Positions 47,733 to 55,348 of a stretch of DNA of 64,000 nucleotides are shown piece after piece. This DNA comes from Candidatus Rokuibacteriota bacterium (GTDB lineage Bacteria; Methylomirabilota; Methylomirabilia; Rokubacteriales; CSP1-6): NCBI GenBank assembly GCA_023248995.1, contig JAHFDN010000001.1, forward strand, positions 186,001-250,000, written 5' to 3'. The notes under the pieces were generated by a model that had not been told where the DNA came from, searched no databases, and saw nothing but the letters and a program-made list of their open reading frames with translations. Each line of letters starts with the position of its first letter. The first letter of the stretch is position 1. The translations under genes and the position numbers were made by a program.

Positions 47733-49910
47733 CTACGGCGTGCGGGACACGACGATGCGTTCGGGCTCCACGCGGATCGGGGCAAGTTCCACCGTCACCG
47801 GCAATCGGGCGAGGCGCGGGCCAGGGTCGTACTGACGGAAGACCCAGTGGACTAACAGCCGGGGGAGCGGGATCCCTCCCAGGCTCAGCCCTTCCGCACG
47901 AAGCTGAAGCGGCTGGTTTCCGCGCCCGTTTTCGACCCTCACACGACCGGCCACGTCCGGGCCCCGTTGGGACAACCGCACGGTGATGGCTCCTTCCTCC
48001 AGACGAAACCCGAGGCCCTGAAACCCTCGGAGCCCGGCGAAAAAGCCCTGGAGGTCCTCCCGGGTGACGACGAGGTGATCCACGCGGAGACGTTCAAGCG
48101 CGAGCAGCTCGATCTCACCGGAGGCGAGCAAGCGATAAGGATTGACGACAAGGCCCTCAAGGGTGAGTCGAACATCCCGGATCCGAAGCTGGGCGCCCTT
48201 CCGGGAGAACTCGGCCACTCGCGCACTCCGTGCCGCAATGCGCACCTGCCGGATCTGCCCCCCGAGAACGGCCCGGGGTGCGTAGCCGAGCTCCAGCTCG
48301 AGCCCCTCGACATCCCGCGCGAAGGGTTCGAGGAAGCGCCGGAACCCGCCCTCGAACCGGGCGGCTAGGACGGACGGGCTCACGCCCGTGACCGGCGCGA
48401 GCCGCCGCTGCCTCACGGTCGCCACGCTCCCGTCCGGGAGCGGGCCCTCCCAGACCACGGGGAACGCGCGCTCGAAGGCCGGGTCGCCAGCCGCGAGGCG
48501 CTCCATGATGCGCCTGGCCTTCGCGACCGAGAAGGCCGGCCCCTGGCCGCCCGTCTTGAGGACGACGAAGTCCACCCCCAGCGGGGACTCATCCCACGCG
48601 CGGACCATTCGGAGCGGAAGCCGGTCCCGGACCGCGTAATAGCGGAAGTTGGCCACCGAAAAGTAGTTGTCGTTCGGCACGACGCTCACCGTGGCCCCCG
48701 ACGCACCAGCCTCGCGGACGATCACGGCCAGGATCCGGTCGTGCGGCCACTCGACGGGCGATGGCGGGAACGAAAAGATGAGGGGGAAATGGAGGGCCGC
48801 CCAACGTGGCGGCGGCGGGACCGCGAAGGCCGCACCGCCGACCTGGACCACCGACACGACGAGGACGGCGATCGTCACGACGCGGCGCCACGCCTCCGGA
48901 AGGGCGCGAAGAGCTGCGGCCGCGATCAGGGCAGACACGGGCAGGAGCGGCAGCACGTAGCGCAGGTTTTTATTCTGGATCAGCAGAAACAACGCAAACG
49001 GCACGACCGATGCGCTCCAGAGGAGGCCGCGGACGGCCGCCTGGCGGGTAAGCGCCCACAACCCCCAGGCGAAGAGAAGCCCGGCCAGGATCCCGAACAT
49101 GGGCAGGAGCGCCCGGGGATAGAACGCGAGCGAGGAGCTCGTGAACGTCCCGGGATAGCCCGACTCGGCGGCCTGCTTGAACGCGCGGTTGCCAATCTGC
49201 ATGGGCAGGCCGAATACGCGCAGGCCGTACCAGGGCAGGCTCAGCGCCGAGCCCCCGAGGAGGGCCAGCGCGAGGTTGCCGACGCGCTTTCCGCGGTCAG
49301 CACCCCGCCACGCCCGCCAGCTCACGAGGGCAAGGGGTGGGAAGAGATAGATGGCGAAGGGCGGCTTGACCAGCATCCCGAGTGCCAGGGTCAAGCCCAG
49401 GACGACGGACCACGACCGTCGTGAAAAGTCCTCTGTCAGGACGAGGACGAGGAGCGCAAAGCTCACCACGGAAGCCAGCGGGAGGTCCAGCTGAAAATTG
49501 GTGCACGAGTAGACCACGAACGGAGCGGTGCCCAGGAAGAGCCCCGCCGCGAGGCCGGTCGGGGCGTCGAACAGCCGTCGCCCGAGCAGGAAGACGGACA
49601 CCAGCGCCAGCCCCAAGAAGGCGAGCATGATCGACTGCGAGGTCAGCGGCGCGATCGGGAACACGGAGTACAGGAGGGCGGCCGAGCACGGGACCACCGG
49701 AGGGTAGAACGAAGACATTTCGAGGATCTCCCCCAGGCCGCTCCACCCCTGCTCCGACAGGATCTGATGGCACACGGCCGCCCGCTCCAGGTGATTCGCG
49801 TGGTCCCACTCGGGCGGTCGGCGGTCCTGCGTCACCCAGGTCCCGACCACGAGGACGAGGCCGAGGAAGAGGCCGGCCAGGAGGAGCCAATGCTTCGCGG
49901 CGGCTGTCAT
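47733..49910 (-). CDS. GT39-type membrane glycosyltransferase fused to a DUF2993/LmeA-like domain
   Basis: This is a 725-residue protein. Residues 1 to about 340 form a multi-helix membrane domain of the ArnT/PMT (GT39, RgtA-like) type, with the catalytic-loop acidic residues near PPEWDHANHLERAA. Such enzymes use polyprenyl-phosphate sugars to modify lipids or glycans at the periplasmic face. A soluble stretch follows. From about residue 500 the sequence resembles DUF2993/LmeA-type lipid-binding beta-domains (FARDVEGLELELGYAPRAVLGG to LPVTVELAPIRVEPERI). The fusion is continuous with no frameshift. Neighbouring GT2 and methyltransferase genes suggest a lipid-linked glycan role. Confidence 0.8.
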   Translation of the reverse strand: MTAAAKHWLLLAGLFLGLVLVVGTWVTQDRRPPEWDHANHLERAAVCHQILSEQGWSGLGEILEMSSFYPPVVPCSAALLYSVFPIAPLTSQSIMLAFLGLALVSVFLLGRRLFDAPTGLAAGLFLGTAPFVVYSCTNFQLDLPLASVVSFALLVLVLTEDFSRRSWSVVLGLTLALGMLVKPPFAIYLFPPLALVSWRAWRGADRGKRVGNLALALLGGSALSLPWYGLRVFGLPMQIGNRAFKQAAESGYPGTFTSSSLAFYPRALLPMFGILAGLLFAWGLWALTRQAAVRGLLWSASVVPFALFLLIQNKNLRYVLPLLPVSALIAAAALRALPEAWRRVVTIAVLVVSVVQVGGAAFAVPPPPRWAALHFPLIFSFPPSPVEWPHDRILAVIVREAGASGATVSVVPNDNYFSVANFRYYAVRDRLPLRMVRAWDESPLGVDFVVLKTGGQGPAFSVAKARRIMERLAAGDPAFERAFPVVWEGPLPDGSVATVRQRRLAPVTGVSPSVLAARFEGGFRRFLEPFARDVEGLELELGYAPRAVLGGQIRQVRIAARSARVAEFSRKGAQLRIRDVRLTLEGLVVNPYRLLASGEIELLALERLRVDHLVVTREDLQGFFAGLRGFQGLGFRLEEGAITVRLSQRGPDVAGRVRVENGRGNQPLQLRAEGLSLGGIPLPRLLVHWVFRQYDPGPRLARLPVTVELAPIRVEPERIVVSRTP

Positions 49911-49932: not shown

Positions 49933-50652
49933 TCAGCGACGCGCGACCATCAGGACAGACACACCGAACGGGAAGTTCGCCCGGCGGAGCCAGCCCGACT
50001 CCGAGGAAAAGATGCGGGTCAGGAGCGCGTTGAGGAAGGGCGGGACCCGCGTGAGGTCGTGATCCCGGGCATGGCGCCTGCGCCTCAGGAGACGGAAGCC
50101 GGCAATGGGAAGGGCGAGGAGCGCGTTGAAGTAGGTCACCCGCAACGGGCGGAGGCCGGCCTCGCCCGCGAGCCGCCGCAACCCACGGGCGGTGTACCGG
50201 CGCCGGTGCCCCAGGACCTCGTCGTGTGAGCTCCAGAGCCACTGGTAGGCGGGCACCGTGCAGATCACCAGCCCTCCGGGCTTGAGGAGTCCCGCCACCG
50301 CCCGGAGCGCCTCCCGATCATCCTCGATGTGCTCCAACACATCGAAGAGCAGCGCCACGTCGCAGGACCCCGCAGCCAACGGGATCCGATCGGGGAGCGA
50401 GCCCTCAAGAACCGTGAAGCCGCGCCGGCGGGCGACCTCCAGGAACTCCGGCGAGGCCTCGATCCCCACGACCCTTCCGAACTCGGCGGCAATCGGCAGA
50501 AACGACCCGCCCCCACAGCCGATCTCGACGAGGCTCAACGCGCCCGGCGGGATCGTCGCCCGCAGGACACTCTGGAGCACCACCCGCCGCCCGACCAACC
50601 ACCAATGACGCTCGTCCTCTTCCAGATGACGAGCGACGTAACCCAGATCCAT
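49933..50652 (-). CDS. Class I SAM-dependent methyltransferase
   Basis: This 239-residue protein has the SAM-binding glycine motif LVEIGCGGGSFLPIAAEF near residues 41-58, motif II DVALLFDVLEHIEDD, and GLVICTVPAYQWLWSSHDEVLGHRRRY. It most resembles methyltransferases found in polysaccharide or lipid glycosylation clusters. Substrate is unknown. It begins 5 bp after the aminotransferase gene. Confidence 0.88.
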   Translation of the reverse strand: MDLGYVARHLEEDERHWWLVGRRVVLQSVLRATIPPGALSLVEIGCGGGSFLPIAAEFGRVVGIEASPEFLEVARRRGFTVLEGSLPDRIPLAAGSCDVALLFDVLEHIEDDREALRAVAGLLKPGGLVICTVPAYQWLWSSHDEVLGHRRRYTARGLRRLAGEAGLRPLRVTYFNALLALPIAGFRLLRRRRHARDHDLTRVPPFLNALLTRIFSSESGWLRRANFPFGVSVLMVARR

Positions 50653-50657
50653 CCGGG

Positions 50658-51842
50658 CTAGCGGCCGGCCGGAGACCGCCCACCGTCGAGTTCAGCGAGG
50701 AACCGACCGATCCGCTCCAGCCCCTCGCGGATCCGCGGGAGCGAATTCGCGTACGAGAACCGGAGATATCCTTCCGCGTTCTGGCCGAAATCGATCCCCG
50801 GCGTGACCCCCACGTGAGCGGTTTCGAGGATCCGGAAGGCGAACTCGTAGGAGTTTCCGGTGAAGCGCCGGGCGTTCGCGAGCACGTAGAAGGCGCCCGT
50901 CGGCTCGGTCCCCACGCCCAGCCCGATCTGGCGAAGGCCGGCGATCATCGCGCGGCGACGGTCGTCGAAGATCCGCCGGAACCGGGCCACGTCCTCGGCC
51001 GCCTCCTTGAGCGCCGCGACGCCCGCCCACTGGACGAACTCATTCGTCGAGATGAAGAAGTTCTGGTAGCTCTTCTGCAGCGTCCGGATGAACGGTCGGG
51101 GAACGATGAGGTAGCCGAGCCGCCACCCGGTCATGGCGAAGGCCTTGGAGAACCCGTTCAGCACGAACGCGCGGTCCGTGAACTCGAGGATCGAATGCTC
51201 CTCGCCCACGTAGGTCAGGCCGTGATAGATCTCGTCCGACACCACCCACGGGCCCAGGCGGGCAATCTCCGCCAGTCGGTCGGGGGACAGGAGGGTTCCC
51301 GTGGGGTTCGCGGGCGAGTTGACCAGAATCGCCCTCACGCGCGGCGACAGCCGCTCGCGGATGTCGTCCGGGCGGTACTGGAAACCGTCGGCTTCGTCCA
51401 CGTTGACGTACACCGGCTCCGCCTCGGCGTACCGCAGCACGTTGGGGTAGCAGGCGTAGTGAGGGTCGGACAGGATCACCTGGTCGCCGGGATTCAGGAG
51501 GGCGCCGAAGAGGAGCAGCATGGCCGGCGAGGTCCCGGCCGTGACCAGGATCTGCTCCGGGGAGACCTCGACGCCGTACCGCGCGTGGTAGTGCTCGGCG
51601 ATCGCCTCCCGGAGCGGCAGGATCCCGAGGCTCTCGGCGTACTTCGTGCGGCCGTCCTTGATCGCCTTCTGGGCGGCCTCCTGAATGACCGGCGGCGTCT
51701 CGAAGTCGGGCTCACCGAACTCGAAATGGACGACATCAATCCCCTGCCGCTCCAGCGCCTGCGCCCGGTCGCTCACCTCCACGGCGAGGAACGGCTTGAT
51801 GTCCCGAACGCGGCGCGCCACGGGGAAGTCAGCGTCGGTCAT
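50658..51842 (-). CDS. Class I/II PLP-dependent aminotransferase (aspartate aminotransferase family)
   Basis: The ATG at 51842, 2 bp from the GT2 stop, gives 394 residues; the track's extra 19 residues are not in the family. Key motifs are FEFGEPDFETPP, the aspartate/tyrosine region VNSPANPTGTLLSP and VVSDEIYHGLTY. The PLP lysine is in VLNGFSKAFAMTGWRLGYL near residue 235, and the C-terminal arginine motif YLRFSYANS. The substrate is likely aspartate, alanine or an aromatic amino acid; sequence alone does not decide. Confidence 0.92.
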   Translation of the reverse strand: MTDADFPVARRVRDIKPFLAVEVSDRAQALERQGIDVVHFEFGEPDFETPPVIQEAAQKAIKDGRTKYAESLGILPLREAIAEHYHARYGVEVSPEQILVTAGTSPAMLLLFGALLNPGDQVILSDPHYACYPNVLRYAEAEPVYVNVDEADGFQYRPDDIRERLSPRVRAILVNSPANPTGTLLSPDRLAEIARLGPWVVSDEIYHGLTYVGEEHSILEFTDRAFVLNGFSKAFAMTGWRLGYLIVPRPFIRTLQKSYQNFFISTNEFVQWAGVAALKEAAEDVARFRRIFDDRRRAMIAGLRQIGLGVGTEPTGAFYVLANARRFTGNSYEFAFRILETAHVGVTPGIDFGQNAEGYLRFSYANSLPRIREGLERIGRFLAELDGGRSPAGR

Positions 51843-51844
51843 CG

Positions 51845-52585
51845 TCAGCGACTCAGGCGTCCCCTGGCGAGGGAGAGGCGCGCGGAGAGGATTTGCCACA
51901 GCATGCGCGGGCCGTCCGCCAGCACGCTGACCTTGCTCCCGGGCCGATCAGCCCAGTTGATCGCCACCTCGGTGACCGTATACCCGCGGCGCTGAGCCAA
52001 GAGGAGGAGCTCCACGTCGAAACCGAACCCATCAGTGGTCACGGACCGGAAGAGATCTTCCGCCGCCGGAGCCCGGAAGCACTTGAAGCCGCACTGCGAG
52101 TCTCTGATCCGACGAAGCCCCAGCCGCGCCACCAGCCAGTTGAAAACCCTCCCCGCCCACACCCGATGCGGCTTCGCCCGCACCGTCACGTCCGGATCCA
52201 CGAGCACCCGAGACCCGATGGCGACGTCGGCCCCCGCCTCGAGCGCCGGCAGGAGCCGCTTCACCTCTGCGATCGGCGTCGCGCCGTCGGCATCCGTGAA
52301 CAGGCGAAAATCCCCTCGGGCGTTCACCATGCCGATCCTGACGGCGTACCCCTTCCCGCGGTTCTGGGGAAGCTCGATGAGCCTCAGCCGGGCGTGGGTG
52401 GCCTGAAGCTCACGCACCCGCCTGGCCGTGGTGTCCCGGCTCCCGTCGTTCACCACGATGATCTCGTAGGGCACGCCCCATCCCTCGAAGAATGCCACCA
52501 CCTCCCCCAGATAGCCCGGCAGGCGCTCCGCCTCGTCGTAGGCGGGAATCACAATGGACCAGGTGACCCCTTCGGCCTCGCTCAT
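51845..52585 (-). CDS. Family 2 glycosyltransferase (ALG5/DPM1-like)
   Basis: This 246-residue GT-A enzyme starts WSIVIPAYDEAERLPGYL and has YEIIVVNDGSRDTT, the DxD-like LFTDADGATPIAEVKRL and the acceptor-site segment DSQCGFKCFRAPAAEDLF. That pattern matches polyprenyl-phosphate glucosyl- or mannosyltransferases. It could make the lipid-linked sugar donor used by the GT39 protein three genes on. That link is inference from operon membership. Confidence 0.9.
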   Translation of the reverse strand: MSEAEGVTWSIVIPAYDEAERLPGYLGEVVAFFEGWGVPYEIIVVNDGSRDTTARRVRELQATHARLRLIELPQNRGKGYAVRIGMVNARGDFRLFTDADGATPIAEVKRLLPALEAGADVAIGSRVLVDPDVTVRAKPHRVWAGRVFNWLVARLGLRRIRDSQCGFKCFRAPAAEDLFRSVTTDGFGFDVELLLLAQRRGYTVTEVAINWADRPGSKVSVLADGPRMLWQILSARLSLARGRLSR

Positions 52586-54772: not shown

Positions 54773-55348
54773 ATGCGCCGGCTCCTCTTCCTCTTCGCTT
54801 TCCTCTGCGCTCCTGTTTCGGCCGCTCCGGAGCCGACGTCCTACGTCGTCGTAGGGGAGCGGAGCCAGGTCGCGTTCGACGCGACGTTTCCCCTCGGCGA
54901 TTTCTCCGGCACGACCGACAGGGTTGCAGGGGAGTTCCGGTTGGACCCCGCCGACGTCCCGCACGGCGTCCTCGGCAGTGCCAGCGTCAACCCCGCGTGG
55001 CTCAAAACCGGCCTCGAGGGGCGCGACCGGGACCTCAAGCAGACGCTGGAGGTGAACGCGCATCCGGAGATCAGCTTCCAAGTGGAAGAAGTCCGATCCT
55101 CCTTTCCGTCCCTCACCGAGCGAGCGGACGTGGCCCTTCACATCAGCGGGGTGATGCGGATCCGCAGCGTGGAGCGTCCCGTCGCGTGGACGGGCCGGGC
55201 GCGCATCGAGGAAGGATGGCTCTGGGTCCGCGGCGAGGCGCAGATCCGACTGAGCGACTTCGGGATCACGCCCCCCAGGAAGTTCTTCCTGGCCGTCGGC
55301 GACCTCGTGCGCGTGAGCTTCGATCTCCGGCTGGCCCCCAGAAGGTGA
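54773..55348 (+). CDS. YceI-family periplasmic lipid-binding-like protein
   Basis: This 191-residue secreted protein of the YceI/TTHA0802 family has a lipocalin-like barrel that binds polyprenoid chains in known members. A signal peptide is clear (MRRLLFLFAFLCAPVSAAPE). The mature part starts SYVVVGERSQVAFDATFPLGDFSGTTDRVAGEF and ends NLRVSF-like DLVRVSFDLRL. It is one of only five plus-strand genes and converges on cinA, with 7 bp between the stops. Confidence 0.88.
   Translation: MRRLLFLFAFLCAPVSAAPEPTSYVVVGERSQVAFDATFPLGDFSGTTDRVAGEFRLDPADVPHGVLGSASVNPAWLKTGLEGRDRDLKQTLEVNAHPEISFQVEEVRSSFPSLTERADVALHISGVMRIRSVERPVAWTGRARIEEGWLWVRGEAQIRLSDFGITPPRKFFLAVGDLVRVSFDLRLAPRR

Follow-up and report, generated by a model that had tools for sequence, protein, structure and literature searches.

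A GT-C glycosyltransferase of Candidatus Rokuibacteriota is continued at its C-terminus by an LmeA/DUF2993-like domain, and this architecture is conserved among orthologs and recurs in distant bacteria. The protein is encoded in the 64,000-nucleotide stretch of DNA analyzed here (referred to as the window), at 47733–49910 on the minus strand. The intact open reading frame begins with ATG and comprises 725 codons and a stop codon with no internal stops, exactly at the coordinates noted in a preliminary description. The gene is present in one copy in the 2.34-Mb host genome. Both halves belong to known families, and no earlier report of their combination was found in the open literature searched. 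PMC12419801 was considered as a precedent in the search for TULIP-glycosyltransferase fusions and was set aside; there, TULIP is joined to Lipocone domains rather than to a GT-C enzyme.

Conservation of the Fused Gene

The window protein was aligned with 28 full-length orthologs (n = 29), which are 34–68% identical to it. All named relatives are from Candidatus Rokubacteria/Rokuibacteriota, a group with soil and groundwater bacteria. When the 29 aligned proteins were compared with Pfam one by one, PMT_2 was found in all 29, LmeA in 24 (E ≤ 0.001), and PMT (PF02366) in six. The fusion architecture proposed in the preliminary description is right and conserved. In close ortholog pairs, dN/dS is 0.17–0.40 in the C-terminal domain versus 0.13–0.31 in the enzyme part; the values for the C-terminal domain indicate that the tail is under purifying selection. 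These values and the 29 full-length proteins, all with PMT_2 and 24 with LmeA, rule out a fusion made by chance or by assembly.

Interrupted copies were also observed. A candidate split gene in L042/G021 (L042, 9471–9999) was rejected, as its break is a frameshift within the conserved GVELEARA stretch. In L003/L023, a single in-frame TGA in a loop, near position 9966 of L023, interrupts the fusion. Both cases look like draft-assembly errors or decay confined to single genomes.

Glycosyltransferase Part

Residues 1–362 (48825–49910, minus strand) form a GT-C membrane core with approximately 11 transmembrane helices. PMT_2 matches residues 70–200 (E = 3.1e-12; 47.4 bits against a cut-off of 26.1), and there is a weak Pfam match to Glyco_transf_22. 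The residues invariant across the 29-sequence alignment include W35-D36, Y69-P70, D142, and K182. The full-length AlphaFold2 (AF2) model built from the 29 sequences (mean pLDDT 90.2, pTM 0.88) consists of bundled membrane helices up to residue 362, an alpha/beta domain at residues 390–501, and the C-terminal domain at residues 512–722. The alpha/beta domain (48408–48743, minus strand) has the motif LPDGS at its end, and the alignment with L081, L120, and L118 shows that tail-less relatives also have it. The approximately 11 transmembrane segments, which are predicted helices with suitable hydropathy, precede the soluble part; therefore, both C-terminal domains would be periplasmic, as in ArnT.

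In a Foldseek search against PDB, the best matches are ArnT (5ezm, 4.8e-8; 5f15, 6.8e-8), followed by STT3, ALG12, AglB, PglB, and PMT4. AF2, Foldseek, and the alignment together reveal the hallmark of GT-C enzymes, a multi-transmembrane fold and juxtamembrane helices with an acidic residue, the invariant D36, in the first loop. Based on this fold, PMT_2, and D36, residues 1–500 are a GT-C (GT-CA) glycosyltransferase. The catalytic aspartate of PimE (D58), ArnT, ALG6, and PglB sits in the first loop (PMC12041525). From the same position, and by analogy to PimE D58 and ArnT, we infer that D36 would be the catalytic aspartate.

The enzyme had been labeled GT39-type. The presence of PMT_2 in all the aligned proteins and of PMT in some agrees with this label, but it is approximate, as the nearest solved fold is ArnT. 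No MIR domain was found by Pfam in the window protein. The profile of the 29 orthologs gave no sequence match to PDB chains, ArnT included, at E ≤ 1.

C-Terminal Domain

Residues 504–725 (47736–48401, minus strand) are, as judged from sequence profiles, an LmeA/DUF2993-like domain. Pfam LmeA (PF11209) matches residues 532–721 of the window protein (E = 3.7e-9; 37.4 bits against a cut-off of 27.3). With the domain alone, the E-value is 2.1e-10, and the scores of both runs are 37.4–41.5 bits. The domain was also aligned by hhalign over 199 columns with stand-alone LmeA proteins (L101, L102, and L104, from two genomes of another family), with a probability of 99 and E = 2.7e-18. DUF2993 carries a TULIP domain, which is a lipid-binding family (PMC6791001).

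Modeled alone by AF2, the domain has a pLDDT of 93. In the full-length model, it is composed of one helix and long antiparallel strands, and the high pTM of that model suggests a confident placement of the tail against the enzyme. Foldseek found nothing significant for the domain model in PDB or among BFVD viral models, and no LmeA structure was found in PDB by sequence. Because no solved structure matches the domain, its homology to LmeA rests on the Pfam and hhalign profiles, and it is at this level that the kinship with DUF2993/LmeA claimed in the preliminary description stands. A crude amphipathicity test, which asked whether the strands have one hydrophobic face, gave no significant result (p = 0.15). 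The layout is unlike that of typical LmeA, which is a stand-alone secreted protein with an N-terminal anchor; in the window protein, the domain instead forms the C-terminal end of a GT-C enzyme.

Distribution

The domain was counted with the Rokubacterial C-terminal domain profile, since the PF11209 scan under-reports and missed the window's own copy. At least 45 of the 60 Rokubacteriales genomes searched contain the domain, and it was not found in any other genome searched in the phylum; the genome scans have a coarse first look, and these counts are therefore lower bounds. All matches in Rokubacteriales are in a long fused frame, except for the frameshifted copy in L042/G021 and matches truncated by a contig end or break. 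These genomes showed no genuine stand-alone LmeA gene.

A full-profile search of 388 genomes revealed the same GT-C family elsewhere with varied tails or none, and found some distant fusions that the domain-profile scan had missed. L081, L120, and L118 are tail-less. The protein of L081 (6210–7979, minus strand), from another family of the same class, has no LmeA tail and stops at the LPDGS motif, which is the domain border; it is a likely pre-fusion form. C-terminal TPR-like repeats are seen in L109 (4787–7273, plus strand) and L116 (4024–6672, plus strand), and other domains form the tail in L110 and L111. The periplasmic tail of this GT-C family is thus a swap site for domains.

Outside the phylum, four genomes, which represent three distant families, have an LmeA-like tail attached to the same GT-C family. 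The protein of L108 is complete (810 aa), that of L105 has 772 aa, and those of L106 and L107 are cut by the contig. The tails of L105, L106, and L108 score 13.6–18.4 bits, below the PF11209 cut-off, and that of L107 has no Pfam LmeA match. Against the Rokubacterial domain profile, the local E-values are 2e-16 for L107 and 2e-5 for L108. As a group, the distant tails match this profile with E = 7.9e-10 and the stand-alone LmeA set with E = 2.6e-11. In trees of the enzyme part, the Rokubacterial and the other fused proteins each form a clade; the two are joined with support 34/9, and the trees do not settle whether the joining event was single or repeated.

The host has LpxC and LptD, and hence very probably LPS. 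LmeA-like domains are now seen also in uncultured LPS-bearing diderms, beyond the actinobacteria, cyanobacteria, some firmicutes, and plastid lineages to which the distribution listed in PMC6791001 is limited.

Gene Neighborhood

On the minus strand, the genes for malic enzyme, GT2, aminotransferase, methyltransferase, and GT-C/LmeA, then nth and the genes from rplM to cdsA, follow one another with short gaps. The housekeeping genes, as read from their translations, are presumably nth, rplM, rpsI, argC, argJ, rpsB, tsf, pyrH, frr, uppS, and cdsA, in this order. The gene for a class I SAM methyltransferase (49933–50652, minus strand; Pfam Methyltransf_11/23) is 22 bp upstream of the fusion gene, and the two are probably on the same transcript. 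A methyltransferase beside the fusion is kept in most relatives. In the relocated loci of L026 and, by similar sequence, L087, a different methyltransferase adjoins the fusion; a methyltransferase gene, the kind of neighbor pointed out earlier, is next to the enzyme at these loci too. The class I/II aminotransferase gene (50658–51899, minus strand; Pfam Aminotran_1_2) is conserved in position, and is probably a neutral neighbor.

The GT2 gene (51845–52585, minus strand) is three genes upstream of the fusion. Its product is like a polyprenyl-phosphate-sugar synthase and is the proposed donor maker; it resembles dolichol-phosphate mannose synthase (DPMS), ArnC, and GtrB. Of 26 public Rokubacterial loci with sufficient flanking sequence, 25 preserve the gene order, including the place of GT2. 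By itself, this synteny offers weak support for a functional link, because the region is a housekeeping superoperon and the association could be passive. In the distant L105 and L107, a GT2 counterpart is located directly downstream of the fusion in quite different surroundings. This recurrence is more telling than the Rokubacterial synteny, and bears out the link with GT2 proposed in the preliminary description.

In L107, the fusion is among heptose (rfaE I and II) and Kdo (kdsB) genes, and in L108 it is near three GT9 heptosyltransferases. A gene for a DUF3108 protein (L107, 3304–4062, plus strand) is close downstream of the fusion, inside the heptose/Kdo cluster. In a Rokubacterial subgroup, the fusion is outside the housekeeping cluster and is followed by a convergent fatty-acid desaturase-like gene (L087, 10316–11050; L086, 11563–12375; L026, 8309–9040; all minus strand), assigned by Pfam in L087 and by similar sequence in the others. 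Not far from the GT2/GT-C cluster, the window also contains a gene for a YceI-family secreted protein (54773–55348, plus strand), which the closest relatives (L022–L025 and L041) share. The YceI family has polyisoprenoid-binding members. No flippase gene of GtrA or MATE type was recognized among the immediate neighbors of the fusion, and no arn operon was seen at the locus.

Proposed Function

The enzyme very probably attaches sugars outside the cytoplasm. On the leading reading, which is about as likely as not, the protein is an inner-membrane, periplasm-facing GT-CA enzyme with a polyprenyl-P-sugar donor and a lipid-anchored acceptor, and its tail grips the lipid or stabilizes the enzyme. 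Three-component pathways of GT2, flippase, and GT-C have been described (PMC11127046). As its family and gene association suggest, the neighboring GT2 would charge polyprenyl phosphate with a sugar at the cytoplasmic face, and a flippase would turn the polyprenyl-P-sugar across the membrane. The GT-C core, of which the fold and residues are seen, would move the sugar to an outer-leaflet acceptor with Asp36 as the base. The LmeA-like domain, next to the active site in the periplasm, might grip the lipid moiety of an acceptor or product that is lipid-anchored; lipid A-core, an undecaprenyl-linked glycan, and other outer-membrane-bound glycolipids are candidates. The effect could be more processivity or product hand-over, and/or enzyme stability as LmeA gives MptA. 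Binding of the acceptor lipid by the tail, as proposed in the preliminary description, is plausible, and a stabilizing role of the kind seen with MptA fits as well. The putative acceptor could be a protein or polymer instead of a lipid-anchored glycan. Whether the tail handles the substrate, alone or together with stabilization, appears evenly poised.

The mycobacterial enzyme MptA has a GT-C fold. It depends on polyprenyl-P-mannose, and LmeA is needed to maintain it at the protein level; in an M. smegmatis lmeA mutant under stress, MptA protein drops and mptA mRNA does not (PMC7643837). The tail here might be just such a structural stabilizer or assembly module, protecting or positioning the GT-C enzyme without handling substrate lipid. 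The same GT-C family is seen with TPR, other tails, or none, so catalysis in general does not require the tail. However, mycobacterial LmeA, a periplasmic protein encoded separately from MptA, is described as binding phospholipids (PMC7643837; for M. smegmatis LmeA, from its reference 23), and TULIP is a lipid-binding family (PMC6791001). Stabilization without substrate handling is rather unlikely.

It is improbable that the enzyme is a PMT-like protein O-glycosyltransferase, with a tail that anchors it to lipids of the envelope or to lipoprotein substrates. PMT4 and STT3 are among the structural matches, in line with PMT_2 in 29 and PMT in six of the 29 proteins, but PMT_2 is common to many lipid and polysaccharide GT-C enzymes, ArnT is the best structural match, and the neighbors at the distant loci are LPS-core and polysaccharide genes. 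Least probable is a lipid exporter module that couples sugar addition to periplasmic delivery and mainly transfers the product rather than binding the acceptor: Rahlwes et al. speculate that LmeA couples mannan elongation to LM transfer (PMC7643837), and domains of the TULIP and Chorein types serve as modules for lipid transfer (PMC6791001), but a single small domain attached to the inner membrane has a short reach compared with the width of the periplasm.

In mycobacteria, the GT-C enzyme MptA is sustained by LmeA, and the fusion therefore serves as Rosetta-stone evidence for an LmeA–GT-C partnership; two parts known elsewhere only as separate partners are joined here in one chain. This suggests a direct physical partnership of LmeA-like domains with GT-C enzymes. 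The occurrence of the fusion in two deeply separated genome sets bears on the means by which LmeA supports MptA and the elongation of lipomannan, and the fusion provides a single polypeptide for testing the idea. Much more tentatively, LmeA-type domains might be general partners of GT-C enzymes on lipid-anchored glycans, with the fusion as a single-chain machine whose TULIP-like clamp would keep the lipid acceptor close to the active site and couple glycosylation to release of the glycolipid or its transport toward the outer membrane. If true, this principle would also account for the support that separate LmeA gives to MptA and mannan elongation in mycobacteria.

Comparison with Known Systems

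The GtrA/GtrB/GT-C and GT136 systems (PMC11127046) also combine a gene for GT2 polyprenyl-P-sugar synthase with a GT-C enzyme. Unlike these systems, the fusion locus has no recognized flippase of either type, and the enzyme has a lipid-binder-like tail. The GT39/PMT protein O-mannosyltransferases share Pfam PMT_2, PMT in some orthologs, and the GT-C fold with the fusion, which differs in being without MIR domains and in having neighbors that do not point to a protein acceptor. ArnT (GT83), the lipid A aminoarabinose transferase, is similar in its GT-C fold, acidic first-loop residue, and predicted periplasmic C-terminal domain, and a putative polyprenyl-P donor maker of ArnC/GtrB type is near the fusion. 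The differences are the lack of a significant sequence match, the extra LmeA-like domain, and a locus without the arn operon. In the case of LmeA (Rv0817c of M. tuberculosis and its M. smegmatis ortholog) and MptA, an LmeA/DUF2993 domain is functionally tied to an outer-face membrane glycosyltransferase dependent on polyprenyl-phosphate-sugar, as is proposed for the fusion. Mycobacteria have two proteins, whereas here a single chain contains the domain together with a PMT_2/ArnT-like enzyme, in a distant LPS-bearing diderm.
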